A DNA stretch of 64,000 nt from Sphingopyxis lindanitolerans (lineage in GTDB: Bacteria; Pseudomonadota; Alphaproteobacteria; Sphingomonadales; Sphingomonadaceae): positions 1,553,251 to 1,617,250 of the forward strand of contig NZ_CM009578.1 of NCBI RefSeq assembly GCF_002993885.1, written 5' to 3'. Positions 44,597-64,000 of the stretch are shown here, in pieces. Numbering within the stretch: position 1 is the first letter of the stretch; each line of letters begins with the position of its first letter. The position numbers were made by a program, and so were the translations under genes. Under the pieces are notes generated by a model, which was not told where the DNA came from, did not search any database, and saw only the letters and a program-made list of their open reading frames with translations.

Positions 44597-44786
44597 GCGC
44601 TTATAAAGAGACTTGCTGTCCACGATCGATTGCGCCGAACAAAATATGCAGAGTGAATCTGTCGATTTCCGTTGCGAACAGCTCTTGCAGCCGGATCCGT
44701 TCGCCAACGACTGACTCTTGCGTTCTTGCTGATCAAGGGGGATATTCGCGGCGTGCGTAGCAGCGCCAAAGTTGGAGACAATTCGA

Positions 44787-49025: not shown

Positions 49026-49559
49026 GTGAAGCCACTCGATCCCGACACCTTCTGGCGTTTCTCGGTATCAGCTTATGCGCAGCCCGGTGTAGCGGATATT
49101 TGCCTCAGCTTGCAGGACGACCATGGCTTCGATGTCAACCTCCTGCTTCTGTGCTGCTGGTTAGCGCAGCTGCGGTCGATCGTGCTTAGCGAGACGGAAT
49201 TGCGTTTTCTCCTCGCAGAAATTGAGGCGACAAATTCAGAAGTCATCGGGCCACTGCGTCAGGCCCGCCGGTGGCTGAAAGCTCCCGCCAGCACCAGCGG
49301 GGCCTCGGCTGCCAAGGCGCAGCGTGTCCGGCGCCTCATAAAGATGGCCGAACTCGAAGGGGAACGGCTGGCGCAGCACCTGCTAATCAGCGCGGCGAGT
49401 GCGCTAGGAGCTGAGAGCTGCGCTGACCTATTGAACGCCGCAAACCTCAGTCTGACGGCCTATACGCGGATCGTTAACGAGACTGACGCTGCCGATGCCT
49501 TGCAAAGCCTTGCGCGCCTCGTCGTCAAGGAGCGTTCGAAGGACCCTTTGCCGTCTTGA
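49026..49559 (+). CDS. TIGR02444/DUF2390 family protein
   Basis: A 177-residue helical protein. FWRFSVSAYAQPGVADICLSLQDDHGFDVNLLLLCCWLA is typical of the TIGR02444 family, then a Leu-rich C-terminus with LNAANLSLTAYTRIVNE. GTG start behind GGGGGCAGGA. The function of the family is not known. The stop overlaps the end of the convergent cytochrome c gene by 35 nt. It could be co-transcribed with iclR, which ends 72 nt upstream. Confidence 0.75.
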   Translation: MKPLDPDTFWRFSVSAYAQPGVADICLSLQDDHGFDVNLLLLCCWLAQLRSIVLSETELRFLLAEIEATNSEVIGPLRQARRWLKAPASTSGASAAKAQRVRRLIKMAELEGERLAQHLLISAASALGAESCADLLNAANLSLTAYTRIVNETDAADALQSLARLVVKERSKDPLPS

Positions 49560-49866
49560 TGTAGGTGAATACAAGATCCACATCGGCGTCTGTCAGCTCG
49601 GTTGGGCGGAATGGCGGCATTTCGATCAGCCCGTTTCGGACGACCGAGTGGACATAGTCCTTGTCGAGGTCCTTGCGGCCAATGAGGGGCGCAACGGGTC
49701 GCTCCATCTCTTCAAGCAGCATAGTGGCGGGATGACCCGGGCCCGGGTCGTGACAACCCGCGCAGTTCAGGGCATATAATTCTGCACCGTCCGGTTTGTC
49801 CGCATCTGACGATTTCGAACAAGCGGTTAGCATCAGCAGAGCGACCGCCAGCAATCCCATCTTCAT
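49525..49866 (-). CDS. Lipoprotein c-type cytochrome (electron acceptor of the flavoproteins)
   Basis: A 113-residue exported haem protein. The signal peptide ends in a lipobox (LLMLTACSK), so the mature protein is probably lipid-anchored in the inner or outer membrane. One haem site, CAGCH, follows at about residue 35, and the axial Met is likely the one in EMPPFRPTEL. p-Cresol methylhydroxylase pairs a flavoprotein with a small c-type cytochrome (PchC); this one is last in the operon and fits that role except for the lipid anchor. It overlaps the convergent TIGR02444 gene. Confidence 0.85.
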   Translation of the reverse strand: MKMGLLAVALLMLTACSKSSDADKPDGAELYALNCAGCHDPGPGHPATMLLEEMERPVAPLIGRKDLDKDYVHSVVRNGLIEMPPFRPTELTDADVDLVFTYIKTAKGPSNAP

Positions 49867-49889
49867 GCTTTCGATTCCCTTGTTTGAGG

Positions 49890-51350
49890 TCAGGCCGACA
49901 GAAAGAGGTTCGCGGGATCGAGCGCGCGTTTCACGCGCGCGTGCAGTTGAGTTATCGCGCCGCTTTCATAGGTCGCCCTAGCAGAGGCGGCGAGCGCCGG
50001 CTCGACGTGCGTCTGTCCAAATCCGGCACCTGCCTGCGCATCGATCAGCTCGATAGCGCAGTCTCTCGCCCGTTTACTGCCCGCGGGACTGCCATCGAAG
50101 CACAAATACTGCCGATGCTGGGCAGAGCGCCAGACGGCATTCGTTTCTCCGACAAAATCGAAACCGTGCCGGCCGGAAATATCGCGCGACAAGTCATAAA
50201 GGCGAAGCCCTTCCTTGCCATCAACCGGGCTGATGGGGCCGATGTCGAGAGAGGATCCTCCGGCCCAGGCCGAAGGGCGGCCAAGTGCATTACCGACCGA
50301 ACCAAGCATCATGCCTTTTCGCCACGCCCACAGTCCTTCCATCCCGGCTGCGGGAGCGGCCAGCACCCGCGAGCCTTTGATCGATGCGAACGCGTCCTGG
50401 ACCATCGACCAAGCGATGCGAACATTGTCGGGGAGCCCGTAAAGCGAGCCGTAAAGAGTCCAGTAGCCAAGCCCGATCGACTCCCCGGCTTTTCGAACCT
50501 CGCCGGCGGACATTGGGCCGGCGCCGCCGAAGTCGCGGCGTACCTTGCCCGAACGCGCTGCTTCGTGCAGCGCATTTGCCACCGCCACGCCATTGGGGAC
50601 GACCATATTGGTCTTGAGCGGGCCCAGTACATCGAGAAGTTTGCCAAGATCGTCTTCGTCCGGCACCGTGACAGCAAAGGATTGCGCTGCCGGGGGCTGG
50701 GGCATGAGCCAGAGGCCGAGCTTGGTCACGACGCCAAGATCGGATTGTGTGAAGAGCCCGTCGATCCAGGGCCCGTAACCAAATTTGAAGAGCTGCCAGC
50801 AGGTACTCTTGGGCATAGCACCCATCCCTGTCCGGACACTGCGGCCGTCGGCCAGCATCAACTCCAGCCCGCATTGCATAAGATAATGATCGGCATATGG
50901 GGTATAGCCCACGCGCCGCTTCAGAAAGGCGCTCGCCACCGATTCGTCGGGCTCACCCGGGCAATCGACCCAGAGCTTGAGCCCCCGCTCGCCTATCTGT
51001 TCGGAGAGTTGCCGAAAGGTGACGCCTGGCTCGACGAGGCAGTAAGCCAAGTTCTCATTGATCTCGAGAATCTCATTCATGCGGCCAAGATCGAGCAATA
51101 TGATCTTGTCGCGTGCCGCCACCTCCTGACCTGCGACCGCGCGGCACACAGGTTGAAGCGCCGCTCCGGCGTCGCTCGCCACCGCGAGGACCTTGGCAAG
51201 TTGCTCGGTGTCGCGCGGCGCGATGATACCCAGGGGCAGGGCGACTCCGGAATGGAAGGGTGCGAGCGCCGCCGGATCGCGCGTTACCCCATCGGCACCC
51301 ACCAGTGCCTCTAGCGCGTCGAGCGCGGCGGCTTGGCGATTTGCGTCCAT
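49890..51350 (-). CDS. p-Cresol methylhydroxylase-like flavoprotein, divergent paralogue
   Basis: A 486-residue FAD protein of the vanillyl-alcohol-oxidase/PCMH family. The FAD-binding part includes VEPGVTFRQLSEQIG and GYTPYADHYLMQCGLELMLADG; the substrate domain has FGYGPWIDGLFTQSDLGVVTKLGLWLMP. It lacks the usual C-terminal pattern of PchF (Arg-Thr-His-Leu-Ala-Phe and a final PGKSGIW) and ends in RALDPANLFLSA. The ATG at 51350 follows a GGGGG site; a GTG 9 nt earlier has no spacing. It may oxidise a second substrate or pair with the other flavoprotein. Confidence 0.82.
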   Translation of the reverse strand: MDANRQAAALDALEALVGADGVTRDPAALAPFHSGVALPLGIIAPRDTEQLAKVLAVASDAGAALQPVCRAVAGQEVAARDKIILLDLGRMNEILEINENLAYCLVEPGVTFRQLSEQIGERGLKLWVDCPGEPDESVASAFLKRRVGYTPYADHYLMQCGLELMLADGRSVRTGMGAMPKSTCWQLFKFGYGPWIDGLFTQSDLGVVTKLGLWLMPQPPAAQSFAVTVPDEDDLGKLLDVLGPLKTNMVVPNGVAVANALHEAARSGKVRRDFGGAGPMSAGEVRKAGESIGLGYWTLYGSLYGLPDNVRIAWSMVQDAFASIKGSRVLAAPAAGMEGLWAWRKGMMLGSVGNALGRPSAWAGGSSLDIGPISPVDGKEGLRLYDLSRDISGRHGFDFVGETNAVWRSAQHRQYLCFDGSPAGSKRARDCAIELIDAQAGAGFGQTHVEPALAASARATYESGAITQLHARVKRALDPANLFLSA

Positions 51351-51362
51351 CTTGATCACCCC

Positions 51363-51602
51363 CTATTTCCGCATGGTCGAAGGTTGCAGGACGATCGGAA
51401 AAAGATCCGGCTCCGAAACATCGATCGCGAACTCCTCGGCGCGCACACGCGGGTCGATCGCACTCGCCGGCTCGCTGTCGCGCCAAGAGAAACAGCAGGC
51501 CGTGCAGCGATGGATTGTCCAAATCGTTTTCTCGCCATCGACGCCGCGGAAATCAGGGATCGAAGCGTCGGAGCCACATCGCGGGCAATGGGGTGCAGTC
51601 AT
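51363..51602 (-). CDS. vdcD: VdcD-like small subunit of a non-oxidative phenolic acid decarboxylase
   Basis: A 79-residue protein with a zinc-ribbon-like start CPRCGSD and a CTACCFSWRDSEP stretch. Members of the VdcD/ShdD family have the same C-x-x-C plus W-T-x-x-x-C-x-x-C-x-x-x-W-R-D pattern and are needed for full activity of UbiD-type vanillate or 4-hydroxybenzoate decarboxylases. The ATG overlaps the vdcC stop (ATGA), the usual arrangement. This small gene is the strongest clue that the UbiD protein is a phenolic acid decarboxylase and not a ubiquinone enzyme. Confidence 0.88.
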   Translation of the reverse strand: MTAPHCPRCGSDASIPDFRGVDGEKTIWTIHRCTACCFSWRDSEPASAIDPRVRAEEFAIDVSEPDLFPIVLQPSTMRK

Positions 51603-53077
51603 AGCGTCTCGCCTCGTTGCATCGCCTGGATCCGTTTGCCGAGGTCATCGATAGTCTGGCCGGTGGGCGGGGTGACCAGATGTGCCTCGCCAACCGGATC
51701 GGGCGGGAGATAGCTTGTTGCGTCGATAATCAGATGGTGCCCCTTCCCCGGCGTCACGGCAGCGGGGTCGATCGGGACCATCGCCATGTTCGGCAGGACG
51801 ATGATGTCCTCCGCGCGCGTCCGGGTCGACAGGGCCCACATGACCTGGTTGAGATCGAAGGGATCGATATCGCCATCGACCATGATCAGATTTTTCAGAT
51901 ACATGAGGCCATGGGGCGTACCAAGCGCGCGGAGCGCCACGGATTTTGCGAAGCCCGCCATCCGGTTCTTGACCGCGATGATCGCTGTCAGTCCGTGCTG
52001 GTACAGCGCATTCACCGCGGTGACTTCGGGAAAGGTCTGGCGCAACTGTGCATAGATGGGCGCCGACGTATGAAGACCGATCAGCGTGTCGTGCTCCGTC
52101 CAGCCACGACCGATGTAGATATTCTCGAATATGGGGTTCTTTCGGTGCGAGACGGCGGTCACCTTGAAGACAGGGGCGCGTCGCACGCCGCTGTAGGATC
52201 CTGGGAATTCACCGAACGGCCCTTCGAAGACGCGCTCACCAAGCTGGAGCTCGGCTTCGATGACGATCTCGCTATCCGCGAGGATGTCGATACCGTTGCC
52301 GGAATTCGTCAGCCGGATCGGCGCTCCCATCATCGCCGAGGCATAAGCATATTCGGACTCGTCGTAGCCGATTGGTGTTGCTGCGAACAACGCGACGCCG
52401 GGATGGTTGCCGAGCATGACGGCGATCTTGAGCGGCAGGCCTTCGCGTTCCGCTGCGAGGATCTGGCGTCCCATGTCATGCGACGGGATCGTCATCAGGC
52501 TGAAGCGATCGGGACCCTGGATCTGAAGCCTGTAGATGCCGACATTCTGCTTGCCGAAATTTTCCGGATCCAACGGATCGCGCGAAGCCACCGACGCCTT
52601 GGCCAAATAGAAACCCCCGTCAAACTCGTTGATGCGATACACGGGCAGCAGGTCGTAGAGATTGATATTCTCCTCGTGCCGGCACTCATGGACAGGCGCC
52701 TGCCCCTCGGGAACGCGGCTGATCTGGGCAGAGGCATCGCCCCAGCGCCCGGCTATGTCGAAGAACATATCCCGGATTGTGGTGCCTTTCGGCTGACCCA
52801 GGAGCAGCGCGATATTATCCCAAGAGCCGTGCACCCCGACAACCGTGCGTTTCCCGGGGTAGCCCGCTATATTGTCGAACAGGATCGCAGGAGCATGATT
52901 GACATCGCGCGAGGCGGCCACGGCAATGTTGCGCAGGTCGGGCTCGGGCATGATCCGGTCCGTCCAGGTAATGGCCTGCCCATATTCTTCGAGGAGCTCC
53001 AGAAAATCGCGCAGCGATCCGACGCCTCTTGCGCGATCGGCGAGGTTGGCGCGGACGGCCGACTTGTCTTGAGACAT
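51599..53077 (-). CDS. vdcC: UbiD-family phenolic acid decarboxylase large subunit (VdcC-like)
   Basis: A 492-residue prenylated-FMN-dependent decarboxylase. Signatures are AILFDNIAGYPGKRTVVGVHGS near the N-terminus, NVGIYRLQIQGPDRFSL with a flavin-contact Arg, ILADSEIVIEAELQLGERVFEGPFGEFPG (Glu-rich active-site stretch) and the C-terminal HHLIIDAT. The ATG at 53077 overlaps the aldehyde dehydrogenase stop (TGATG). With VdcB and VdcD it would remove CO2 from a 4-hydroxybenzoate-type acid. The prFMN cofactor would come from the UbiX-like protein of the same operon. Confidence 0.9.
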   Translation of the reverse strand: MSQDKSAVRANLADRARGVGSLRDFLELLEEYGQAITWTDRIMPEPDLRNIAVAASRDVNHAPAILFDNIAGYPGKRTVVGVHGSWDNIALLLGQPKGTTIRDMFFDIAGRWGDASAQISRVPEGQAPVHECRHEENINLYDLLPVYRINEFDGGFYLAKASVASRDPLDPENFGKQNVGIYRLQIQGPDRFSLMTIPSHDMGRQILAAEREGLPLKIAVMLGNHPGVALFAATPIGYDESEYAYASAMMGAPIRLTNSGNGIDILADSEIVIEAELQLGERVFEGPFGEFPGSYSGVRRAPVFKVTAVSHRKNPIFENIYIGRGWTEHDTLIGLHTSAPIYAQLRQTFPEVTAVNALYQHGLTAIIAVKNRMAGFAKSVALRALGTPHGLMYLKNLIMVDGDIDPFDLNQVMWALSTRTRAEDIIVLPNMAMVPIDPAAVTPGKGHHLIIDATSYLPPDPVGEAHLVTPPTGQTIDDLGKRIQAMQRGETL

Positions 53078-54540
53078 CAGTGTGCTCCCCCAGCGACCGC
53101 GTCGGTCTGGATGCTCACCCATTTCCACTCGGTCATGATTTCGAGATCGGCCTCGGTGCCCTCGCGGCCAAATCCGGAAGCCTTGGAACCGCCGAACGGC
53201 ACGTGAGGCTCGTCGTGCAACGTGGGCGCATTGACATGGACCATCCCGGACTCGACTTCGCGAGCGAACCGAAGCGCCTTGTCGATGTCGCGCGTGAAGA
53301 TCGCGGCGCTCAGGCCATATTCGGTGTCGTTGGCAAGCCGGAGGGCTTCATTGAGGTCATCGAACGGATAGAGCGACGTGACCGGCCCGAAGGTCTCCTG
53401 GGCCGCGACCTCCATCCCGGGCTGGACACCGGAGAGGATGGTCGCATGGCACACATGGCCCGTCCATTCGCCCCCGGCGAGTATTTCGGCTCCCTTGCCG
53501 CGGGCGTCATCGATATGACGCCGCACGCGCGCGCGCTGCCGCTCGGAAATGATAGGACCCAGCATCGTTGCGGGATCGCGCAGATCGCCGGATGAGAGTT
53601 TCGCAGCTGCAGCAGCGAAAGCCTTGGAGAACCGGTCGAAGATCGGACGTTCGACATAGATACGCGACGCCCCCATGCACACCTGGCCCTGATACATGAA
53701 GATGCTGAAGATCGCGGCCGCCACGGCCTTGTCGATGTCGGCGTCGGCGCAGACGACGAGAGGACTCTTCCCGCCGAGTTCGAGGGTATATTTCTTGAAG
53801 CCTTCAGCTGCGATGCGAGCGATATGCCGCCCGACCCGGGACGAGCCCGTGAAGGTGATCGCGCGAACCTTGGGATGGCCAGTAAGCGCATCGCCGATTT
53901 TGGCGCCGTCCCCATATACAATGTTGAACAGGCCTTCGGGCACGCCTGCGTCCTCCCAGAGGCGCGCGAGTTGATCGGCCACGCGCGGTGCCGCTTCCGA
54001 CGGAAGCAGGACGAAGGCATTGCCCGTCGCGAGCGCCATGGCCGACTGCTTGATTCCCTTGATCAGCGGGACGTTGAACGGCGTAATGCCGGCAACGACT
54101 CCCACCGGTTCGCGAAAACTCATGCTGACGCGGCCGGGCGCATCGGATGGAATAGTTTCGCCGCGAATGCGACGGGGAACGCCTGCGGCGGCGCGCAAGA
54201 AGCTCGTGGCGAACCGGGTCTCGAAACCGGCCTTGGCGATCGGCGAGCCGATTTCATCAACGAGCGTGTCGGCAAATTGCGATGCGTCACGCTCCATGAG
54301 AGCCGAAGCCTTTATCATCCATGCCTCGCGCGCGCCTGCGGAAAGGTCGCGGTTCCGGCGAAAGGCCGTGTCGGCCGCCTCAACGGCTCGATCGACGTCG
54401 GCCGGAGTCCCGGCAGCCGCCCGGGAATAGAGACTGTCGTCAATCGGGTTCAGGCTTTCGAAATAAGCGCCGTCGCCAGGGGCAACCGGTGACCCGCCGA
54501 TCCAGTGGTCAAGCCCCCTCACTTCGTTCTTACGCATCAT
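53077..54540 (-). CDS. Aldehyde dehydrogenase, NAD(P)-dependent
   Basis: A 487-residue ALDH. Motifs: GITPFNVPLIKG, FTGSSRVGRHIA (nucleotide site), LELGGKSPLVVC with the catalytic Glu, and GQVCMGASRIYV with the catalytic Cys, then EVESGMVHVNAPTLHDEPHVPFGGSKASGFGREG. It resembles the vanillin/benzaldehyde dehydrogenase group. ATG at 54540 overlapping the flavoprotein stop. It would turn the aldehyde made by the PCMH-type flavoprotein into the acid that the VdcBCD system decarboxylates. Confidence 0.92.
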   Translation of the reverse strand: MMRKNEVRGLDHWIGGSPVAPGDGAYFESLNPIDDSLYSRAAAGTPADVDRAVEAADTAFRRNRDLSAGAREAWMIKASALMERDASQFADTLVDEIGSPIAKAGFETRFATSFLRAAAGVPRRIRGETIPSDAPGRVSMSFREPVGVVAGITPFNVPLIKGIKQSAMALATGNAFVLLPSEAAPRVADQLARLWEDAGVPEGLFNIVYGDGAKIGDALTGHPKVRAITFTGSSRVGRHIARIAAEGFKKYTLELGGKSPLVVCADADIDKAVAAAIFSIFMYQGQVCMGASRIYVERPIFDRFSKAFAAAAAKLSSGDLRDPATMLGPIISERQRARVRRHIDDARGKGAEILAGGEWTGHVCHATILSGVQPGMEVAAQETFGPVTSLYPFDDLNEALRLANDTEYGLSAAIFTRDIDKALRFAREVESGMVHVNAPTLHDEPHVPFGGSKASGFGREGTEADLEIMTEWKWVSIQTDAVAGGAH

Positions 54541-56123
54541 GAATCTCCTGGGAGCGTGGGTCGTGTGGCATCAGGACGTGCCGACTTCGGCCATATGCCC
54601 TGCTTTCCGGGCGAAAGGATGCCGTTGGGATCGAGAGCGTCCTTCAGGCGGTGATGGAGATCCCAAAGCGCCCCGTCGTTGTGACGATAGGTTCCAGCAA
54701 TCTGGTCCATGAAGGCGAGATGGGTACGATATTCGCCGAACCCTGCCGCCGCGGCCTCGTCCACCAGGAGACTGAAGAGATCGTGGGCGCTCTTGCGCAT
54801 CGTTTCATCGGCCCGATTGTACATGATCATCAAAATGTGATGCATGTCCCGCCAGCCCACCAGAAACTCCCCGATGTAGTCGAAGCCGAACTCGTGGCAG
54901 CGTTTCTTGATCAGATTATATTGGGCCAACGCCTCCGCCCCGTCGGGGGCGGAAATCGGGGAAAAGTTGACGTGTCCCCCTCCGCCGATCCAGTTCATGA
55001 TGCTGAACTCGGTCATATTGGGTTCGCCGCGCATGAGCTTTACGCGATAATCCCACGCAGGATCATTCTCGCGCGTGAAGTGGAACTTGGCGCCCGGAAT
55101 GTTGCTGAATGCCTCCTCGATCAATTTCCAATTATTCTCGATCATGGGCGGTGGTCCGTAGAGAGCGCCGTAATAATTCCACATCCCGAGATTGAGGTCC
55201 GCGGCGATCTTCGCCCGGATCGACGGCGGGAGCGGCCCCTTGCCGTCATAATAATGTCGCCGCGTGGTCTTCGCCGAGGCCTCCCACAATAGGTCGACCG
55301 CGACCGCTGCGTTGGGGATCACCTGATTCACCTTGAGCGGGCGCGTGATCTCGAAAATCTGCTCGAGATCCTCTTCGCGTGGAAAGGTGATCATGAACGG
55401 CTTGTAACCGGGGGGCTCCGGCATCAGCCAGATGCCGAGTTTGGTGACGACGCCGAAATTCGACTGGGTGAACATGCCATCGAACTGCGGTCCGAGCCCA
55501 TGTTTGCTGATCTGCCAATGCTTGCTGTTAGAGATGCCTCCCTGGCCCGTGCGAACGACCTGGCCATCGGCAAGCACAACTTCCATCCCGCATTGCATGA
55601 TGAAGTGATCGCCATAGGGCGTGTAGCCGGCGCCATGCTCGAGCGCGTTCCCCATGACGCCGCCCCAGGCGGGCGCTGCCGGATCGATCCACAATTTGCT
55701 GCCGATCCGCTGCAGGTGGCGATAAAGCTGCATGTAGGAAACGCCCGGCTCGACCAGCGCATATCCATATTTTTCGTTGACTTCGATGATCCGGTTCATC
55801 CGTTTCAGATCGAGGACAAGATATCCGGATCTTCGGGGTGCCGGCCCGCCATATGCGAAGTTCCGTCCAGTCCCGATGGTCCAGATCGGCAGTCGGAAGC
55901 TGTTGGCGATGGCAAGGATCCGCTGCACCTGTTCGACGCTTTCCGGAGCGACGGCGGCAGAAGGAAGCAGAGTGCCATCGGCAAGCGGCGAATACGCGTC
56001 GCGGTAAGTCGACAGCGGAAGCTCGTCGACGAAAACCCAGGTTTTGCCGACGACGCCTGCGAGTTCATCGAGGGCCCGTGAAAAGTCGGCCGCCGCAATT
56101 CCCTCGGGCAGCGGCGGCCTCAC
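54537..56123 (-). CDS. p-Cresol methylhydroxylase-like flavoprotein subunit
   Basis: A 528-residue FAD protein of the PCMH/vanillyl alcohol oxidase family, canonical form. FAYGGPAPRRSGYLVLDLKRMNRI, VEPGVSYMQLYRHL and GGVMGNALEHGAGYTPYGDHFIMQCGMEVVL build the FAD domain; the C-terminal half has FGFDYIGEFLVGWRDMHH, EYRTHLAFMDQ and DPNGILSPGKQGIW, as in PchF. It hydroxylates the benzylic carbon of 4-alkylphenols and passes electrons to a c-type cytochrome. GTG start overlaps the upstream stop (GTGA). The Tyr that covalently holds FAD was not assigned. Confidence 0.9.
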   Translation of the reverse strand: MRPPLPEGIAAADFSRALDELAGVVGKTWVFVDELPLSTYRDAYSPLADGTLLPSAAVAPESVEQVQRILAIANSFRLPIWTIGTGRNFAYGGPAPRRSGYLVLDLKRMNRIIEVNEKYGYALVEPGVSYMQLYRHLQRIGSKLWIDPAAPAWGGVMGNALEHGAGYTPYGDHFIMQCGMEVVLADGQVVRTGQGGISNSKHWQISKHGLGPQFDGMFTQSNFGVVTKLGIWLMPEPPGYKPFMITFPREEDLEQIFEITRPLKVNQVIPNAAVAVDLLWEASAKTTRRHYYDGKGPLPPSIRAKIAADLNLGMWNYYGALYGPPPMIENNWKLIEEAFSNIPGAKFHFTRENDPAWDYRVKLMRGEPNMTEFSIMNWIGGGGHVNFSPISAPDGAEALAQYNLIKKRCHEFGFDYIGEFLVGWRDMHHILMIMYNRADETMRKSAHDLFSLLVDEAAAAGFGEYRTHLAFMDQIAGTYRHNDGALWDLHHRLKDALDPNGILSPGKQGIWPKSARPDATRPTLPGDS

Positions 56124-56692
56124 CGCGTTTCTCCGGCAAGCCGAAAGGCCCAGGTCACAAGTAGGCCGGGGCTATTCGAGGCGAGTGCACATTCCCCCGA
56201 AATGCACGCGGCCCGGCGCGGTGATGATTTGTGGCCGTCCAGCTCATCGCGAACTTTCTGCGCAACGACGGCGGGCCAAGTATATTGCGGGAGCGCGCCC
56301 AAGCCGGGGGCGGCGCCGATGCGGTGTGTCCAGCGGCCCGCCTCATAGGAATGTTCCCATCGAAGCAAAGGCTCCGCTCCACTCTCGATGAGCAACTGGG
56401 CCGCAATCATTGCAGCGGGGTCGGAGGTCAGGCCTGCAATCACCTGCGCGCCGCGGGGCCAGTCGCCAAGCAACTCATCCAGCCCGCTTCCGACATCCAG
56501 CGCGAGAGACTTTTTCGAAGACGATATGAGGGACGCGGCAAAACGCTCGCTTTCCTCAACCCTTGGCTGGCTGACGACGAGAACGGCCTCTTCGTCCGCC
56601 GCACTTCCTGACCGGAAGCGGGAGGCTCCAACCAGACCCGCGCAAAAAACCCCGGCGCCCAATAGCTCCCGGCGCATCAGCACTGCCGCCAT
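56120..56692 (-). CDS. Exported protein of unknown function inside the catabolic operon
   Basis: A 190-residue protein with an N-terminal Arg-Arg pair (MAAVLMRRELLGAGVF) and an Ala/Gly-rich hydrophobic segment ending near SGSA, which is a signal peptide, possibly Tat-type but with a weak motif. The mature part has no motif I recognise; it contains a QVIAGLTSDPAAMIAAQLL segment and two Cys late (AACISGECALASN). It overlaps the UbiX gene by TGATG on one side and the flavoprotein GTG on the other. It may be an assembly or haem/flavin delivery factor for the periplasmic flavoprotein-cytochrome complex; that is a guess. Confidence 0.7.
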   Translation of the reverse strand: MAAVLMRRELLGAGVFCAGLVGASRFRSGSAADEEAVLVVSQPRVEESERFAASLISSSKKSLALDVGSGLDELLGDWPRGAQVIAGLTSDPAAMIAAQLLIESGAEPLLRWEHSYEAGRWTHRIGAAPGLGALPQYTWPAVVAQKVRDELDGHKSSPRRAACISGECALASNSPGLLVTWAFRLAGETR

Positions 56693-57315
56693 CAAATTGT
56701 CCTTTCCGATTTATCCGCCTGCGCCAGAGGCATCACTTCTGCGCCCTTCAGTCCGGTCCATCGGCGATCGGCGGCCCGATGGATGCCGAACTGGTCGAGG
56801 ACCCGGATGCAGCTATGGTCGACGATTTCGTCGATCGACGATGGCCGAGCGTAGAACGCCGGGACGGGTGGGAAAATTATCGCCCCCATTTCGGTACAGG
56901 CTGCCATGTTTCGAAGATGGGCAAGGTTCAGGGGCGTCTCTCGCACCATGAGCGTTAATGGACGACGTTCCTTGAGCATGACGTCGGCAGCTCGGGTGAT
57001 CAGATTGTCGGAGAGCCCATTGGCGATCGCCGCAAGGGTGCGCATGGAGCACGGCGCGACGATCATGCCGTCACAGAGAAACGATCCGCTCGCGATACTG
57101 GCGCCGACATTCCGTATGTTATGAACCACGTCAGCCGACGCTTCAAATTTTTTCAGCGTTAGCGGCAGTTCCTCGCGGATGTTGAGCACGGCTGCCTGGG
57201 AGACCACGAGGTGCGTTTCGCAGCTCGGATCTTCACGTAGCATCTCCAGCAGACGCAGGCCGTAGATTGCCCCCGTGGCGCCAGTGACCGCGATCACGAT
57301 CTTCCGCAACGTCAT
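56692..57315 (-). CDS. vdcB: UbiX/VdcB-like flavin prenyltransferase
   Basis: A 207-residue enzyme that makes prenylated FMN from FMN and dimethylallyl phosphate. It has VTGATGAIYGLRLLEML, then SGSFLCDGMIVAPCSMRTLAAIANGLSDNLITRAADVMLKERRPLTLMVRETPLN and the closing TEMGAIIFPPVPAFYARP, all standard for UbiX/Pad1. It supplies the cofactor for the VdcC-like protein. The start is 133 nt downstream of the aldolase stop, and that gap holds a TTGTGCAA motif, so a separate promoter is likely here. Confidence 0.93.
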   Translation of the reverse strand: MTLRKIVIAVTGATGAIYGLRLLEMLREDPSCETHLVVSQAAVLNIREELPLTLKKFEASADVVHNIRNVGASIASGSFLCDGMIVAPCSMRTLAAIANGLSDNLITRAADVMLKERRPLTLMVRETPLNLAHLRNMAACTEMGAIIFPPVPAFYARPSSIDEIVDHSCIRVLDQFGIHRAADRRWTGLKGAEVMPLAQADKSERTI

Positions 57316-57414
57316 CGCGCCAGCCGACGGAGGCCGCCTTCATCCGGTCGATTCGGCACTAGCATAGCCCGCTCCCGATTTCCTATTTGGACACAGCATA
57401 CAATCCGTTGCTTA

Positions 57415-57422
57415 TTGTGCAA
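57415..57422. promoter_or_regulatory. TTGTGCAA motif upstream of vdcB
   Basis: One copy of the island motif (ATTGTGCAAG context), 100 nt upstream of the vdcB start in the only sizable gap of the minus-strand array. It would put the vdcB-to-cytochrome part under the same control as hpaH. Confidence 0.5.
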
Positions 57423-57448
57423 GGCCAAAACCGGCGCGCGGATCGCGG

Positions 57449-58219
57449 TCACTGGCGGAATTGATCGAGCAGCCCGCGTGCCGCATCGGCGAGGACGAAC
57501 GCATCTATTCCGACAGCGACGAAGCTTGCGCCGCCGGCGAGATGTGCATCGAGAAGCGCGAGATCGCGCGACAGAATTCCCGCTGGCTTTCCCGCGGCAA
57601 GGATGCGAGACAACGCGCCCAGCGTGAGCTCGCGCACCCGCTCCCGGTTGGCGCTTCCCAAGAGCCCGGCCGACGCTGCCAGATCGGCCGGACCGATGAA
57701 CAGCGCGTCGATCCCGTCGACGCCGGCGATTGCTTCGATATTCTCGACACCCTGCATCGTCTCGATTTGCGCGATCAGACAAAGCCGCGCGTTGGCATCG
57801 GCGACATGGCTCGCAATGCCGCCCCAACGCGATGCCCTTGCACCGCCGATGCCTCGGCTGCCCGATGGGGGGTAGCGGCATGCTTCGACCAACCGGACGG
57901 CCTGCTCAGCCGTTTCGACCATCGGAACCATGAGGGTCGTCGCTCCCAAGTCGAGGATCTGACGGATCGCGACGGGATCTGATGAAGGCACGCGCACGAC
58001 GGCGGCGCAGCGCGGGCAGGACGCTATTGCCCGCAATTGCTCGATTATCCCGGGCAGGGTTTGCGGTCCATGCTCGGCATCGACGAGGAGCCAATCGAAC
58101 CCCAGTCCGGCGCAGATTTCGGCGATATCGGCATTCGCCAGCGCCAGCCAGAATCCCATCTGCGTCCGCCCTTCGGCGAGCGCGACTTTGAAATGGTTGG
58201 GAGGATTTGCTGACGACAT
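57449..58219 (-). CDS. HpaI-like 2,4-dihydroxyhept-2-ene-1,7-dioate aldolase (HpcH/HpaI family)
   Basis: A 256-residue class II aldolase that splits 4-hydroxy-2-oxo acids to pyruvate and an aldehyde. GFDWLLVDAEHGPQTL holds the metal-site Glu region, MVPMVETAEQAVRLVEACRYPPSGSRGIGGARASRW is the HpaI signature, and LIAQIETMQGVENIEAIAGVDGIDALFIGPADLAAS has the metal ligands Glu and Asp. ATG at 58219, 1 nt after the hydratase stop. It would act on the product of the HpaH-like hydratase. Confidence 0.9.
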   Translation of the reverse strand: MSSANPPNHFKVALAEGRTQMGFWLALANADIAEICAGLGFDWLLVDAEHGPQTLPGIIEQLRAIASCPRCAAVVRVPSSDPVAIRQILDLGATTLMVPMVETAEQAVRLVEACRYPPSGSRGIGGARASRWGGIASHVADANARLCLIAQIETMQGVENIEAIAGVDGIDALFIGPADLAASAGLLGSANRERVRELTLGALSRILAAGKPAGILSRDLALLDAHLAGGASFVAVGIDAFVLADAARGLLDQFRQ

Positions 58220-58220
58220 G

Positions 58221-59021
58221 TCAGACAAACCGCATCGCGATCGAGCCAAGCCTGCCATAATCCGCAGATATCACGTCGCCGCGCGACACAGGGACCGGGC
58301 GGGTAAAAGAACCGCCCAGCAGGATTTCGCCCGCCTGTAACTCTTCTCCCCACTGCGACAAGCGATTTGCCAACCACGCGACCCCTCGCGCTGGATGGTT
58401 TAGCACGCCAGCCGCAATTCCTGTTTCCTCGATGACGGCATTGCGAGACAATATGGCGCCGGCCCATCGCAGGTCGATGGCGTCCGGCCGGATGGGCCGA
58501 CCGCCGAGGACGATCCCGGCATTTGCCGCGTTGTCGGCAATCGTATCCTGGATTTTACGAGCGCTTCCGGTCTCCGCGTCGATCGGCTGAACCCGGCTGT
58601 CGATGATCTCCACGGAGGGCACTACATATTCAGTGGCAGCGAGAACAGCCCGTGTCGTCACATCGGGACCACCCAGCGGCCGGGAGAGGATGAAGGCCAA
58701 TTCGACTTCGACCTTCGGATTGATGAAGCGATCGATGGGAATTTCGCTCCCCTCCTCGAACGCCATGTCATCGAGCAACGTGCCATAGTCGGGCTCGGTG
58801 ATACCAGCAGACGCCTGCATCGCACGCGATGTCAGACCAATCTTGCGGCCAATGGACCGACGTCCCGCCGCCTTCTTGAGCTCAACCCACGTGCGGGCGA
58901 TGCGATATCCATCTTCTATCGTCATCTGAGGGAAGCGAAGCGACAACTGCCGGACGGGTGTTTGGCTCGCCTCGGCGACATCCAGTTCACGCGCGAGCGA
59001 TGCAACAGTCTCGTCGTCCAT
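58221..59021 (-). CDS. HpaH-like 2-oxo-hept-3-ene-1,7-dioate / 2-oxopent-4-enoate hydratase
   Basis: A 266-residue hydratase of the MhpD/HpaH family. [45 protein letters not shown] and [26 protein letters not shown] are near-copies of the HpaH pattern; the C-terminus [16 protein letters not shown] is also typical. It adds water to the dienoate formed after ring cleavage. The ATG at 59021 follows GGGGAG at 8 nt; the GTG at 59042 is too far up. First gene of the array, with a TTGCACAA motif 44 nt upstream. Confidence 0.9.
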
Positions 59022-59062
59022 CTCAGCTACTCCCCGTCCCACAATTGCTTATCTGGCAAATG

Positions 59063-59142
59063 CATTGCACAATGAGATATGAGAGTCCAGTCGGCAGGTC
59101 GCTAGAGTTTACAATGGACAACACGATAGCCATTGTGCAATG
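59063..59142. promoter_or_regulatory. Twin CATTG-N2-CAATG sites in the hpaH/hydrolase divergent region
   Basis: CATTGCACAATG at 59063-59074 and CATTGTGCAATG at 59131-59142 are perfect inverted repeats with a 2-bp centre, in opposite orientation and 68 bp apart. Each sits about 45-50 nt upstream of the start of its gene, as expected for two divergent promoters bound by one regulator. Confidence 0.65.
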
Positions 59143-59189
59143 TCCAGGTCGGATGGAATGCCATCGATAAGACGGAAGGGAGAGATTTC

Positions 59190-60056
59190 ATGGGTTCGGA
59201 TGTCATCCGGGAAGAGAAAATCGAAGGACGCGGGCTTACGTCGCACACGATGATCGCCGGCGATCCCAAGAATCCTGCCATATTACTTCTGCATGGCGCC
59301 GGGCCGGGTGCGCACGCCGCATCAAACTGGCGCCACCTAATGCCCGATCTCGCCGAAAATTTCTTCGTGATCGCACCCGATCTGATCGGATTTGGCCAGT
59401 CCACCATACCGGATCCGTTCCCGGACAATGTCATGGCGTGGATCGGTGTCCGCGTCGAACAATGCCTCGGACTGATCGACGCGCTTGAGATCGACAGCGC
59501 CCATATCGTCGGAAATTCGATGGGCGGCGCGCTGACACTGCAGCTTCTGAGCGAAACGCCCGAACGATTCGATAAGGTCATCCTCATGGGGTCGATCGGT
59601 GCCCCGGCGCCGCGGACGCCCGAGTTGGTTCGGCTGCTCTCCTTTTATTCCGATCCGCGCCCAGCGCGATATCGCCAGCTGATGCACAGCTTCGCCTATG
59701 ACGCGGACAAGTTCGAAGGAATGGAAGAGATCGTATCGTCGCGCTATCAAATTGCGACCGATCCCGCTGTCATGTCCATCGCGTCGAAGATGATCGATTC
59801 GATGAAGGTCGGGATCGAAACGCTTGCAATGCCGCCGTCGATCTTGGGCAAGCTTCCGCACGACGTGCTGATTTTTCACGGCAGGCAGGACCGGATCGTA
59901 CCTCTCGATACGAGCCTCTATCTGCTTGAACATCTCCAGCATGCCGAACTTTATGTTCTCGACAGGTCGGGACACTGGAGCCAGCTCGAGCGATGGGACA
60001 TCATGCGCCCGATGCTCGAACGCCATTTTGGCGCACGCGACTGGACGACGGCCTGA
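59190..60056 (+). CDS. Meta-cleavage-product hydrolase (alpha/beta hydrolase)
   Basis: A 288-residue C-C bond hydrolase of the DmpD/TodF/BphD group. LLLHGAGPGAHAASNWR gives the oxyanion loop, the nucleophile Ser is about 110 in VGNSMGGAL, Asp about 234 in HGRQDRIVPLDTSLYLLE and His about 262 in SGHWSQLERWD. It cleaves ring-fission products to an acid and a dienoate, the substrate of the hydratase. ATG at 59190 behind GGGAGAG. It is divergent from hpaH, convergent with the dioxygenase genes. Confidence 0.92.
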   Translation: MGSDVIREEKIEGRGLTSHTMIAGDPKNPAILLLHGAGPGAHAASNWRHLMPDLAENFFVIAPDLIGFGQSTIPDPFPDNVMAWIGVRVEQCLGLIDALEIDSAHIVGNSMGGALTLQLLSETPERFDKVILMGSIGAPAPRTPELVRLLSFYSDPRPARYRQLMHSFAYDADKFEGMEEIVSSRYQIATDPAVMSIASKMIDSMKVGIETLAMPPSILGKLPHDVLIFHGRQDRIVPLDTSLYLLEHLQHAELYVLDRSGHWSQLERWDIMRPMLERHFGARDWTTA

Positions 60057-60126
60057 GGGCCGTTGTCACCCCGATAACGTACATATCCACCAGGGCGCTG
60101 GCTCTCACCATCCCTCCCCGGTGTGG

Positions 60127-60624
60127 CTAGATCGGATAGACCAGATAGCGGGGTAGTACCGTCGTATCGAGGAGGGTACGGCGGGAAAGGAGCTTCAGAT
60201 CTCCATCCTCGCCTTCCCGAACGAGATCCTCATATTGCCCTGTCGCGAGGACTTCGGACACGCCGCTGTCTTCGGGCGTCATGAACACGCTGAAGTTGGA
60301 CCGCGCTTTCCAGGTGTTATCATCAATTCGGTCCGCCGCGACGCGCTGAACGAAACGCCGAGTTCGATAGTCCTGAAATGTCCCGGCCCATATCTTCGTG
60401 ATATAGGTCACTCGGTCGAGCAGGCGCGCGTGGCAGTCGTCGTACATGAAGCCCAGCGCGAGCCCCTGTTCCTCATTTTCACGCGACAGACAGATATAGG
60501 ATGCGTCGTCCTCTTCCACATAGTTGGATAGCCAGCGCTGCATATCCTTGCTGTCGAGTGCGTCCGCGTCCGCGACGAGCAAGTCGTCGAGCGCGCGATT
60601 AAAGTTTTCGGGCGCCAAGGTCAT
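60127..60624 (-). CDS. Aromatic ring-hydroxylating dioxygenase beta subunit
   Basis: A 165-residue NTF2/SnoaL-like small subunit. DAPNYICLS-like YVEEDDASYICLSREN, HARLLDRVTYITKIWAGTFQDYRTRRFVQRV and the C-terminal LKLLSRRTLLDTTVLPRYLVYPI are typical of benzoate/biphenyl dioxygenase beta subunits. The ATG at 60624 overlaps the alpha stop (ATGA); a start 15 codons earlier would lie inside alpha. It stabilises the alpha3beta3 complex. Confidence 0.85.
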   Translation of the reverse strand: MTLAPENFNRALDDLLVADADALDSKDMQRWLSNYVEEDDASYICLSRENEEQGLALGFMYDDCHARLLDRVTYITKIWAGTFQDYRTRRFVQRVAADRIDDNTWKARSNFSVFMTPEDSGVSEVLATGQYEDLVREGEDGDLKLLSRRTLLDTTVLPRYLVYPI

Positions 60625-61796
60625 GCTGCGCGCCTTTCGAAACCCATTATTTCCCGATAATATTCCCATCTCGGAAGATTTCCGCTCTCGTCGTTCTGAA
60701 GGAACTCGTCCTCGATCTTCTCTTTGTCACGGACACCTTTTTGAAAGATGGCCGCGCCCGGCGTGTGATTCCCGATATGAATCCGGTGAAAAATCGACGC
60801 GTCTTCCATGCTGATCAGGCCGCTCGGACCCAAGAGGTTCGAACTTTGGCGCAAGCGGTGCCGCACCATCTCCTCATCGTCATCGGCATGCGCAAAATAA
60901 GCGTAATGCACTTCGACCCGCTCATGATCGATGGGCGTCGCGAACCGCAGGTTGATAACGTCCAGATGCTTCGTTGCAACGAAGGTCGGAAAGAGGCTGA
61001 CGATCCGGGATCCGACGGAGGGGTCCTGCCCCTTGAACTCGATGATCGACGGATCTTCGAGCATCGTATCGCCGCGGGCAACCGACAGCTCGGATTCAAA
61101 GCCTATATGGCCCCGTTTCGTACTGGTGAACTGGCGCCCCTTACCGCCCTGCCAGTTCAGGAGATTGAAGGCCTGGTGCAGGAGCGGTGCATGATAGCCG
61201 TCATTGTCGGTATAGGACTTCCAGTTCGTGTTGTACCGGACCTTCTGGTAGCCGAGCAGCTTGAGGCGGCCGTCCCCCCCCACGAGCTCGCGGAGCGTTT
61301 CCACGATCGATCCGAGGCATTCGAGAAGGGGTTCGGTTCGAGCGGACATGGTAACGAACACGACGCCGTAGACGCTCTCCATCCGGGGTTGGGCCAAGGG
61401 ATAGTCGGAGCGGTTGAAGCCAGGCACGAACTCGCGCTGGTTCGGACACCCTACCAGGTCCCCCCGCGTGCTGAACAGCCAGCGATGATATGGGCATTCG
61501 AATTCCTGCTTGTTCCCCATTGGAGCGGTTTCGAGCTGGTTCCCGCGGTGCGAGCAGGCGTTGAAGAAGGCGCGAACGACACCATCATCGCCGCGCGCGA
61601 TCAGCAGGGGAATACCGGCGAGACGAAACGTCTTGAAATCCCCCCGTTCCGGGATCTCGCTCTCATGGCAAACCGGATGCCACTCCTCGCCATGAAAAAT
61701 GCGCTGCAGTTCGGTGTCGTAAACGTCCTTGCGTACGAAAACTTCCTTCGGAATCTCATTGAAATTGTGAGGCCAGTCTAAATCTAGCTTCGTCAT
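60621..61796 (-). CDS. Rieske ring-hydroxylating dioxygenase alpha subunit
   Basis: A 391-residue catalytic subunit. The Rieske cluster ligands are Cys81 and His83 ([11 protein letters not shown]) and Cys101 and His104 (ECPYHRWLF); the second box reads CPYHRW where nearly all relatives have CPYHGW. The mononuclear iron site has His202 and His207 with Asp199 ([13 protein letters not shown]). [12 protein letters not shown] stretch near 340 should give the last Asp. ATG at 61796 behind GGAGG overlaps the hydratase-aldolase stop (ATGA). Substrate unknown; the order alpha-beta with a BenD-like gene nearby hints at a benzoate-type acid. Confidence 0.9.
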
Positions 61797-62812
61797 GGGA
61801 TTGCCTCCAATGATAATGGCGTGGATTGCTCGCGTTCCAGCTCGCGTCCCAGGTCGGCCCACATCGTGCCGGATTTGCGCGCCCCGGCCAGAAACGGCTC
61901 GGGTACGAGATGATACGGCGGCCGAACTGGTCCCGCTTTCATCCACCCTGCAGCGTCCATTCGGGCCTTCTCGAGGCCGATGTTATAAGTTGAAAATTCC
62001 TTGAAGCTCCCATTCGGGAACAGGGGCGCGGCGGTGGGGCCCAGACGCGCCTGCAGCGCCCGCGCGGCCGCCCAGTCGCCGCTTGCCCTCGCCTTCGCGA
62101 CAATATCGCGCAAACTCGTCGTCACGAGCGGATGGCAAACGGCGCCACTGGACCAGAAGGCATCGATCTCGTCGACCATCCGCGCCGCCGCATAATAATC
62201 GAAATCGATGGGGAGTAGCTTGATATTGCCCTTCACGGCCGCAAGATCGGCCAGCAGTGTACCGATTCCGATATATTTCGCGGTTACGACCTGGGGAATT
62301 TCCGCGACCTGCGCCCAGAATGCCCGCGGAAAATCGAACTTAAACGCTTCGGGGTTGGCGTAAATGGCGATATTCATTTCGGGGACCGCCTCGGCGACGT
62401 CGCGATAGAATTGCACGGAAACGTCGAGCGCGGGCGCGCACCACATTGGAATGCCAAGCATGGTCCCGTCGGCGCCAAGCGCAAGCGCTTCCCGGGTCAG
62501 GGCGATCGTATCGCGCGTGTTAAGGCAGGTCGTGCCCACGAACACGGGAACGCGGCCGCCGGCCGCATCGACAATCGCTCGCATATAATCGAGCTTTTCA
62601 CCGTGGGTGAGCGTTGCCGCCTCTCCCAGAGTTCCCATGCTGAGAATGCCGTCAATTCCAGCATCGATCAGCCCGTTCACCACCCGCGCGGCTTCATCCA
62701 GGTCGACCGTATTCTGAGCGCGCCAGTCCGAGGCGTTTTCGGTAGCGGGCGTCGGCACGATGGCCCAGGCGCCTTTGATATCATCGGGTCGGAGCAGCCG
62801 GCTGCGCATCAT
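61793..62812 (-). CDS. NahE-like trans-o-hydroxybenzylidenepyruvate hydratase-aldolase
   Basis: A 339-residue class I aldolase of the DapA superfamily. It shares long blocks with Nah[71 protein letters not shown] and [27 protein letters not shown]. The Schiff-base Lys is about 179 (VTAKYIG). Such enzymes hydrate and split an aryl-alkenylpyruvate into an aromatic aldehyde and pyruvate. Either of two ATGs at 62812/62809 fits the GGAGAGG site. First gene of a dioxygenase operon. Confidence 0.93.
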
Positions 62813-62861
62813 CCCTCTCCTTTTGGACCTGCAGAATCACGGCCCCTTCGTTGTTCATAGT

Positions 62862-62966
62862 GTAATGCATTACTCCTTGTGTTTGCAAGCTGTGACATGT
62901 AATTCCCGAATCAACCTACGCGTAATAATCCTAACTAGTTGCTATTTAACAATTTTCTTTGTGCAA
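62862..62966. promoter_or_regulatory. Palindrome GTAATGCATTAC and TTGTGCAA site in a divergent promoter region
   Basis: A perfect 12-bp palindrome lies at 62862-62873, 50 nt upstream of the nahE-like start. TTGTGCAA lies at 62959-62966, 17 nt upstream of the SDR start. They are two different candidate operators in the 170-bp gap between the two genes. Confidence 0.55.
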
Positions 62967-62982
62967 TAGTGGAGAGCTCACG

Positions 62983-63768
62983 ATGATTTCCTCCGGGCGA
63001 TATGCCGACAAGATCGCCGTTGTCACGGGCGGCGCTCAGGGCATCGGATTGGCGGTTGCGGCCCAAATGGCCCGGGAAGGCGCGACAGTGACCATCGCAG
63101 ACCGCGCCGAGGACGCCACGATGGCGGCCGTTGCGGGCCTTCGTTCCGACCGGCTCGACGCCCATGGCGAAATTCACGACCTTGAGAAAAGAGACGGCGC
63201 CTGCTCGCTATACCGGAATGTGATCGAGCGGCATGGGCGGGTCGATGTCGCGGTCCATAATGTCGGCGGCACGATCTGGGCCAAGCCCTTCTGGGACTAT
63301 TCCGCGGAGGAGATAGAGGCTGAGATCAACCGTTCGCTCTGGCCTACGATCTGGTGCTGTCATGCCGTGCTGCCGTATTTCCTGGCGGCGGGACAGGGTG
63401 CGATCGTCAACGTGGGTTCGGTCGCGACGCGCGGGATCAACCGCTTGCCCTATGCCGCGGCGAAGGGCGGCGTTGCTGCGCTGACCGTGGCGCTCGCCCA
63501 GGATCTCGAAGACAGGCCCATTCGGGTCAATTGCGTGGCGCCAGGCGGCGTGAACATCACGAGAGTTACCCCCAGAAATCCGGCCGAGCCCACCGAGGCA
63601 GACAAGGCAGGGTTCGAGGCTGTCGTAAGGCAGACGCTGCGCGATACCCCGATGGCGCGCTTTGGCGAGGTCGACGAGATAGCTGCCGCCATCTGTTTTC
63701 TCGGCGCCCCCGAGGCCTCCTACATTACCGGACAGACGCTCTATGTTGCCGGAGGCGGGATCGGCTGA
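62983..63768 (+). CDS. BenD-like cis-1,2-dihydroxy-carboxylate dehydrogenase (SDR)
   Basis: A 261-residue short-chain dehydrogenase. It has VVTGGAQGIGLAVAAQMA (NAD site), VAVHNVGGTIWAKPFWDY, IEAEINRSLWPTIWCCHAVLPY, the catalytic SVATRGINRLPYAAAKGG (Tyr-x-x-x-Lys) and NCVAPGGVNITRVTPRN. The NVGGTIWAKPF and WCC-AVLP blocks match BenD/XylL, which oxidise and decarboxylate cis-diols of benzoates to catechols. The ATG at 62983 follows GGAGAG; the TTG at 62959 is part of a candidate operator. Its dioxygenase partner would be the alpha/beta pair. Confidence 0.9.
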   Translation: MISSGRYADKIAVVTGGAQGIGLAVAAQMAREGATVTIADRAEDATMAAVAGLRSDRLDAHGEIHDLEKRDGACSLYRNVIERHGRVDVAVHNVGGTIWAKPFWDYSAEEIEAEINRSLWPTIWCCHAVLPYFLAAGQGAIVNVGSVATRGINRLPYAAAKGGVAALTVALAQDLEDRPIRVNCVAPGGVNITRVTPRNPAEPTEADKAGFEAVVRQTLRDTPMARFGEVDEIAAAICFLGAPEASYITGQTLYVAGGGIG

Positions 63769-63779
63769 AGTTCGGGGAC

Positions 63780-64000
63780 CTAGGAAGGAGACTTCTTCAA
63801 TATATCGCGCAGCGGGACATCGATATCGGCCAACTCCGCCTGCACGACGCGCGCGCGGCGTTCGACAAGGCGCTTGGCGACTCCCATATCCGCAGAGCGG
63901 TTCGCGGTCAGCGCGCCCATGACGAGATCTCCTGAGAGGAAGAATGCGCAAAAGGCATCATCCTCCACCCTCCCGCGCATGATGAGCTGCTGCTGCGCGT
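63780..64000 (-). CDS. FAD-dependent ferredoxin reductase, C-terminal end (partial)
   Basis: The frame is open to the right edge of the window and stops at 63780, so only the last 73 or so codons are present. The text DDAFCAFFLSGDLVMGALTANRSADMGVAKRLVERRARVVQAELADIDVPLRDILKK, seen in short pieces, matches the C-terminal domain of NADH:ferredoxin reductases for Rieske oxygenases (for example FxxFYL, then ALxxNRxxD, then RRLIERRAxVD). An ATG at 63980 is internal. It would pass electrons from NADH to the dioxygenase; the ferredoxin gene is not in the window. It is convergent with the BenD-like gene. Confidence 0.75.
   Translation of the reverse strand, partial: AQQQLIMRGRVEDDAFCAFFLSGDLVMGALTANRSADMGVAKRLVERRARVVQAELADIDVPLRDILKKSPS

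Follow-up and report, generated by a model that had tools for sequence, protein, structure and literature searches.

How might a flavoprotein without a signal peptide reach the periplasm, and does the cluster in which it is encoded make up a new catabolic pathway? Both questions are raised by a block of genes in the window, the 64,000-nucleotide stretch of Sphingopyxis lindanitolerans contig NZ_CM009578.1 that was analysed here. On its minus strand lies a vdc/pch array of eight genes (57315-49525), which overlap or are separated by gaps of a few to some 20 bases. In order, they encode UbiX, a protein that we call orf191, the flavoprotein VAO1, an aldehyde dehydrogenase, UbiD, VdcD, a second member of the VAO/PCMH family (PCMH, p-cresol methylhydroxylase) that we call VAO2, and a cytochrome c. 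A preliminary description had presented the block as a candidate new catabolic island serving one substrate; by gene calls and profile scans, all the genes that it named are in place, and orf191, at 56120-56695, was absent from it.

The reading that we favour, and hold to be probable though well short of secure, is that the block is a reduced module of the type carried by plasmid pNL1, in which the array forms a self-contained unit for removal of para side chains, orf191 carries VAO1 through the twin-arginine translocation (Tat) system, and VAO2 is an inactive second subunit. On this view the array would act on a phenol and take off its para side chain. In the periplasm, VAO1 and the cytochrome would oxidise the para-benzylic carbon; an acid would then be made by the aldehyde dehydrogenase, and UbiX, UbiD and VdcD would release the acid group as CO2, so that the resulting phenol could pass to the ring-cleavage enzymes of the module. 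VAO1 would fold in the cytoplasm and bind orf191, the pair would be carried out by the Tat system, and VAO2 would take its place as the inactive second subunit of the VAO1-orf191 complex. Sequence itself shows which genes and which module these are, that VAO2 has lost residues, that orf191 bears a Tat signal and that it has a dedicated pairing with a flavoprotein; from this we infer the reactions, the substrate, the export role and the complex.

A proposed Tat-signal partner of VAO1

What kind of protein is orf191? A profile scan found no Pfam domain in it, and a search of a 5.8-billion-protein set returned nine matches, its own cluster included. Its N-terminus conforms to our Tat rule, under which an RR motif must have a hydrophobic stretch without charges after it. 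Under the same rule, a twin-arginine open reading frame (ORF) of about 190 aa stands directly upstream of the flavoprotein gene at 58 of 78 loci (81 less three that are cut), as against 42 of the 1433 other ORFs there. An alignment of 39 family members (A2), made up of 33 locus members picked by the Tat rule and six, the P-rows, picked by homology only, is invariant at the two arginines, at one histidine and at one leucine. Pfam TAT_signal is matched by 20 of the 39 at E up to 0.1, the window's own orf191 giving no match, and no other Pfam domain was found in the 39 save for three single weak matches. The best solved-structure matches of the orf191 profile are Tat signals, those of a nitrate reductase precursor (E 0.026) and of an arsenite oxidase small subunit (0.059), and are not significant by themselves. 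In a Sphingopyxis metagenome-assembled genome (L005, at about 9.4-10.0 kb) the orthologue is split across two frames, by mutation or assembly error.

Does the pairing hold when the signal is set aside? A model of the mature part, with the signal columns left out, was run on 40 flavoprotein loci unused in building it and recovered the family at 13, mostly after the cytochrome gene; a Tat ORF occupies the tested places at 15 of these 40 independent loci, against a background of 12 in 489. A second mature-only alignment (A3), which includes three of the 40 independent loci, was searched against 396 Sphingomonadales genomes and gave 41 places in 33 genomes, 32 of them among the 45 genomes with a flavoprotein and one among the 351 others. 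Thirty-six of the 41 places lie within 1.5 kb of a listed flavoprotein gene on the same strand, and at four more such a gene stands alongside that the first survey had missed, so that 40 of 41 adjoin a same-strand flavoprotein; the last is 226 bp from a flavoprotein gene on the opposite strand. The VAO1 survey scored three candidates per genome and the mature-orf191 survey nine, and both may miss copies.

If a small partner supplies the export signal, what of flavoproteins that have no partner? Where the flavin N5 site is Val, and in several cases where it is Pro, such a flavoprotein has its own Tat signal at the N-terminus. Of 121 loci, two with a frame of at most 300 aa (L047, L065) and three that are cut (L052, L061, L066) were set aside, leaving 116. 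Among the 109 that lack the oxidase-type Leu, 18 have only an own signal, 82 only a partner, none both and nine neither; all seven loci with the Leu have neither own Tat signal nor partner. The 40 independently fetched loci divide in the same categories into 15, 15, none and four, with six Leu loci that have neither. Dereplication at 70% leaves 34 loci, with own signal at four, a partner at 21, both at none, neither at five, and four Leu loci with neither (p = 0.0046). The Asn type of N5 site, which is absent from the N5-site list of PMC7617285, is accompanied by a partner at 13 of 15 independent loci. A TatC gene is present in the window's genome. On this pattern we read orf191 as the likely Tat carrier for a signal-less flavoprotein.

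Might the same hold for the family at large? We lean, by a modest degree, toward the view that cytochrome-linked, 4-phenol-oxidising flavoproteins of the PCMH type generally leave by the Tat route, with the signal in cis or on a fast-evolving small partner, that O2-using relatives with neither stay cytoplasmic, and that one branch, present in alpha-, beta- and gammaproteobacteria, has gained a fixed flavin-free subunit. An FAD glucose dehydrogenase has a small Tat hitchhiker gamma subunit, as described in PMC6719666. Like orf191, this subunit is a small Tat-signal protein beside a signal-less flavin dehydrogenase with a heme c acceptor; the system differs in that its dehydrogenase is of the GMC family, and no Pfam domain common to the gamma subunit and orf191 was found. 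Nor is the gamma subunit among the fold matches listed for the orf191 model. In P. putida the gene order is pchACXF, with an unexplained pchX beside pchF. Among the papers listed for this question, mostly open-access, we found no report of Tat export of PCMH-type flavoproteins, and an earlier description may exist.

VAO1, VAO2 and the array as a probable functional unit

The whole length of VAO1 can be aligned to VAD (8S7P). Conserved in it are Pro151, the acidic residue and a pair of histidines (HH), the mixed signature that PMC7617285 ascribes to the VAD clade. This paper also gives a rule by which cytochrome-linked dehydrogenases have Pro or Ile, not Leu, at the flavin N5 site; VAO1 follows it, its Pro151 being aligned to Pro151 of VAD. 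VAO2 is aligned to VAD over its length as well, without the flavin loop, Pro151, the histidine pair or the Tyr-Arg pair (YR). Is this an accident of one gene? Among 52 loop-less copies of the VAO2 type, which come from alpha-, beta- and gammaproteobacteria, none has Pro151, HH or YR and six have the acidic residue, while the 88 loop-bearing copies have Pro151 in 85, HH in 77, YR in 80 and the acidic residue in all. After dereplication at 70% the loop-less counts are 0/14, 0/14, 0/14 and 4/14, and the loop-bearing counts 19/22, 17/22, 20/22 and 22/22. VAO2 is conserved as a protein and probably does not function as an enzyme of the VAO/PCMH family. The block had been said to hold two PCMH-like flavoproteins; family membership stands for both, and the standing of the second as a flavoenzyme is lost with its flavin-binding and catalytic residues. 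The PCMH of Geobacter has a flavin-free alpha-prime subunit. Three loci from gammaproteobacterial metagenome-assembled genomes (L043, L045, L047) have, in the place of VAO2, a second flavoprotein about 50-52% like VAO1, in which the flavin loop is present and HH and YR are absent; a Rieske alpha gene precedes it.

Do the genes of the array belong together? All seven array queries (UbiX, VAO1, aldehyde dehydrogenase, UbiD, VdcD, VAO2 and cytochrome) match in 37 of 80 named loci, a count that may include loci without a loop-less copy, since the VAO2 query cross-matches VAO1 (L054 has none). Three gene orders are found: one in Sphingopyxis, Sphingobium, Novosphingobium, Erythrobacter and Croceicoccus, another in Cycloclasticus and other gammaproteobacteria, and a third on the betaproteobacterial plasmid pBN2 of Paraburkholderia aromaticivorans. 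Because gene content is kept while order changes, a joint function of the array genes is suggested, and the earlier proposal that benzylic oxidation and decarboxylation dependent on prFMN (prenylated flavin mononucleotide) form one unit gains support.

The decarboxylase genes had been named VdcB, VdcC and VdcD. UbiD, whose nearest solved structure is the phenolic acid decarboxylase 7ae4, does pass the VdcC cut-off, and the small VdcD is present; UbiX passes the cut-offs for UbiX and falls under that for VdcB. With the VdcBCD and ShdBCD decarboxylases the array has in common UbiX, UbiD and a small D subunit, and it is unlike them in placing these in one operon with a flavocytochrome and an aldehyde dehydrogenase, as well as in its sub-threshold UbiX. 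With PchCF, PcmIG, BpfAB and VAD it shares a flavoprotein of the family without signal peptide and a cytochrome c with a lipoprotein-like signal; unlike these, the array operon includes the additional pseudo-flavoprotein VAO2 and the Tat-signal partner orf191.

Relation to the pNL1 module

Is the gene set itself new? A tblastn comparison of the block genes with positions 1-65627 of pNL1, from Novosphingobium aromaticivorans F199/DSM 12444, found counterparts for 16 of 16, at identities from 36% (orf191) to 85% (UbiD). On pNL1 these lie in three sub-blocks: Rieske beta, Rieske alpha and a dihydrodipicolinate-synthase-family protein (-), a short-chain dehydrogenase (+) and an FAD reductase (-) at 1.1-6.0 kb; UbiX through cytochrome at 42.9-50.7 kb; and a hydrolase (-) followed by hydratase, aldolase and CoA transferase (+) at 52.8-56.6 kb. 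Inside each sub-block, gene order and strands are the same in pNL1 and the window, whereas the sub-blocks, separate on pNL1, where 40 kb lie between nahE and the array, are brought together in the window. In the window's genome the reductase directly abuts the next aldehyde dehydrogenase, and therefore pNL1 6.1-17.6 kb, with its two ring dioxygenases, xylM/A and bphB, is absent there, and so from the window's module. The four genes compared from pNL1 7.9-17.6 kb (two dioxygenase alpha subunits, bphB and xylM) have no orthologue in the window's genome; taken as the mark of the module, the two ring dioxygenases at pNL1 7.9-11.8 kb with bphB and xylM are not found in it. We take bphB, xylM/A and bphA to be the names of the pNL1 genes compared; the record gives other or general names.

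PMC3946609 credits the pNL1 module with biphenyl, naphthalene, m-xylene and p-cresol, and places ahdA4, xylL and nahE next to one another on plasmid pLA1. Sphingopyxis bauzanensis DSM 22271 carries a pNL1-like module, with bphD, bphE, bphF and a CoA transferase moved relative to their place on pNL1 (PMC5597774). We match these names to the pNL1 sub-block at 52.8-56.6 kb, and because of this match the window's HpaH- and HpaI-like genes are most simply the bphE and bphF of a pNL1-type module; as regards the names first given to them, HpaH is over its cut-off and HpaI under its own. Judged by gene content and order, the block is a rearranged, reduced chromosomal form of a known pNL1-type aromatic-catabolic module. 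The claim of a new set falls, since pNL1 carries the same genes, spread over three sub-blocks, and a similar module is described in S. bauzanensis (PMC5597774), and a set already described was what the preliminary description had itself named as refuting its claim.

How is the set distributed? VAO1 is found at 80% or more in nine of the 396 Sphingomonadales genomes, and NahE at 77% or more in the same nine, the next-best NahE being at 63%; a search of genomes for the set thus has array and nahE co-inherited in nine of nine. The two lie within 6 kb of each other in only three genomes, all Sphingopyxis (the window's own, G000, with G215 and G240); they are 37-56 kb apart in G385, G217, G294 and G280, and on separate contigs in G263 and G224. 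In the six genomes without this adjacency the four pNL1 genes of 7.9-17.6 kb are present at 72-100%, and in the three Sphingopyxis their best matches are at 29-38% or there are none. Array and nahE have been brought together by compaction in a single Sphingopyxis group, which lacks these entry steps; the group may now use phenols or acids, not hydrocarbons.

The contig to which the window belongs is 4.15 Mb long, the genome as a whole 4.37 Mb, and the nearest named loci are from Sphingopyxis, at 99% over VAO1. G+C is 0.64-0.72 before 40 kb and 0.56-0.63 beyond, and a tyrosine-recombinase integrase gene at 43283-44596 (+), where G+C falls, is likely the left edge of the island. After it come a GntR/FCD regulator (44772-45440) and a CoA transferase (45515-46720) with 50% identity to the pNL1 CoA transferase adjoining hpaI. 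A DUF2390 (TIGR02444-type) protein at 49026-49559 (+) adjoins the cytochrome end of the array, and a TIGR02444 gene has the matching place on pNL1 and on Sphingobium plasmid pF2. The HpaH and HpaI genes precede the array, and beyond HpaH the block continues through the hydrolase, the Rieske pair, NahE and the short-chain dehydrogenase to the ferredoxin reductase (Table 1). The nearest solved relatives of the NahE-like protein, 9frt and 6dao, are trans-o-hydroxybenzylidenepyruvate hydratase-aldolases. Catabolic genes extend to about 100 kb in window numbering. Past the pNL1-like part there is a second catabolic stretch (L003:4127-17346, window numbering 86876-100095), with a short-chain dehydrogenase, a class II aldolase-family protein, a PdxA-like dehydrogenase, two further Rieske pairs and an extradiol-like dioxygenase; it matches pNL1 weakly or not at all, except for one Rieske pair (51-60%) and a TonB receptor (52%).

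Table 1. Genes of the block, in window numbering, with the evidence for each assignment
Feature	Position	Strand	Evidence
cytC, cytochrome c, lipoprotein-like N-terminus	49525..49866	-	Pfam Cytochrome_CBB3, Cytochrom_C; lipobox by eye; 61% to pNL1
VAO2, conserved pseudo-flavoprotein, VAO/PCMH family	49890..51359	-	alignment to VAD over 480 residues; residue losses
VdcD, small subunit of hydroxyarylic acid decarboxylase, 79 aa	51365..51602	-	49% to pNL1 gene annotated subunit D
UbiD / VdcC prFMN decarboxylase	51599..53128	-	NF041204 669 bits, cut-off 650; nearest solved structure 7ae4; 85% to pNL1
ALDH1, aldehyde dehydrogenase	53077..54540	-	Pfam Aldedh; 78% to pNL1
VAO1, catalytic VAO/PCMH flavoprotein without signal peptide	54537..56123	-	end-to-end match to VAD 8S7P; Pro151, acidic residue, HH present
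orf191, Tat-signal protein, proposed VAO1 export partner	56120..56695	-	twin-arginine start, position, pairing, cis/trans pattern; 36% to pNL1
UbiX flavin prenyltransferase, VdcB-like	56692..57315	-	UbiX-family cut-offs passed; 258 bits on the VdcB model, below its 290
HpaI-like aldolase (bphF position of pNL1)	57449..58258	-	TIGR02311 277 bits, under 369; 64% to pNL1
HpaH-like hydratase (bphE position of pNL1)	58221..59042	-	TIGR02312 433 bits, over 352; 65% to pNL1
alpha/beta hydrolase (bphD position of pNL1)	59133..60056	+	Pfam Abhydrolase_1; 77% to pNL1
Rieske oxygenase beta subunit	60127..60669	-	Pfam Ring_hydroxyl_B; 63% to pNL1
Rieske oxygenase alpha subunit, AndAc-like	60621..61946	-	Pfam Rieske, Ring_hydroxyl_A; NF041684 172 bits, under 750; 74% to pNL1
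NahE-like hydratase-aldolase	61793..62812	-	9frt E 4e-129, 6dao E 3e-128; 77% to pNL1
short-chain dehydrogenase, XylL/BenD-like	62959..63768	+	Pfam adh_short; 72% to pNL1 gene annotated 1,6-dihydroxycyclohexa-2,4-diene-1-carboxylate dehydrogenase
ferredoxin reductase	63780..64000 (in-window part; gene to 65012)	-	Pfam Pyr_redox_2, Reductase_C (L002:1031-2263); 63% to pNL1

Alternative readings and significance

Several observations weigh against a Tat-borne VAO1 in a side-chain removal unit. The dereplicated cis/trans contrast rests on only four own-signal and 21 partner loci, and neither signal nor partner is found at four of the 40 independent and nine of the 109 non-Leu loci. Of these nine, L048, L050 and L103 show an RR flavoprotein start by eye and L087 an RR ORF upstream, and these four look like threshold misses; L009 is rearranged, and L049, L090, L097 and L122 are without such explanation. 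Selection accounts in part for the invariance of the arginines in A2, whose locus members had to satisfy the Tat rule to be included. The orf191 family is poorly conserved, at 12-24% between branches, and the predicted model of orf191 has no clear structural relative. Finally, VAD is most active on vanillyl alcohol and is reported inactive on p-cresol in PMC7617285, so that p-cresol is not secure as the substrate of the array.

Could orf191 be a periplasmic accessory, for example a flavin-, heme- or ligand-handling protein, that uses Tat for itself while VAO1 exits or assembles otherwise? Among the alternatives this one is the most deserving of a hearing, and we still think it unlikely: it leaves unexplained that own-signal flavoproteins have no partner (0 of 18 have one), and that the partner occurs almost only beside signal-less flavoproteins. 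A different route has been proposed for BpfAB, in which the signal of the cytochrome guides the flavoprotein; according to PMC12724174, BpfB has a Sec/SPII signal, BpfA, PchF and PcmG have no signal peptide, and PchCF is periplasmic. We give this route very little credence, since a Tat signal is present in cis or in trans at 100 of 109 non-Leu loci. Sec moves unfolded chains, and is ill suited to a folded, FAD-bearing flavoprotein. The cis/trans pattern points to Tat over such a cytochrome-guided Sec/SPII route.

What of the substrate? The array might be a plain p-cresol pathway to 4-hydroxybenzoate, with UbiD and VAO2 as bystanders; p-cresol is among the pNL1 compounds in PMC3946609, and VAO1 belongs to the PCMH family. 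This we judge improbable, for UbiX, UbiD, VdcD and VAO2 stay with VAO1 in three classes despite the altered order, and VAD, with its reported inactivity on p-cresol (PMC7617285), is the closest characterised enzyme. More doubtful still is the proposal with which study of the block began, that the whole of it makes up a single new pathway, in which a phenolic compound with two rings or an alkyl group would use every step. The co-inheritance of array and nahE in all nine genomes speaks for it, and so do 16 of the 80 named loci, in which VAO1 is accompanied by hydrolase, HpaH and HpaI. Against this, the same genes make up a pNL1 module said to serve several compounds, and array and nahE are far apart or on other contigs in six of the nine genomes, their adjacency being local to the other three; nor is there an isomerase or extradiol enzyme inside the block itself, both being further down the island. 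A single pathway is not supported, and we consider it a most improbable reading beside that of a reduced pNL1-type module whose array is a unit of its own.

What, then, is to be learned from this locus? The island itself is ordinary. The novelty appears to lie within the vdc/pch operon, where the PCMH-type flavocytochrome comes with a Tat-signal partner dedicated to it and with a conserved paralogue that is flavin-free. The partner gene would explain how signal-less flavoproteins of the p-cresol-methylhydroxylase type, reported to be periplasmic, leave the cytoplasm. It would also supply a rule for reading genomes: Tat in cis, in trans or not at all would tell probable cytochrome-linked enzymes apart from oxidases, which are of interest in biocatalysis. 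The orf191 family, nameless so far, gains a hypothesis as to its function.

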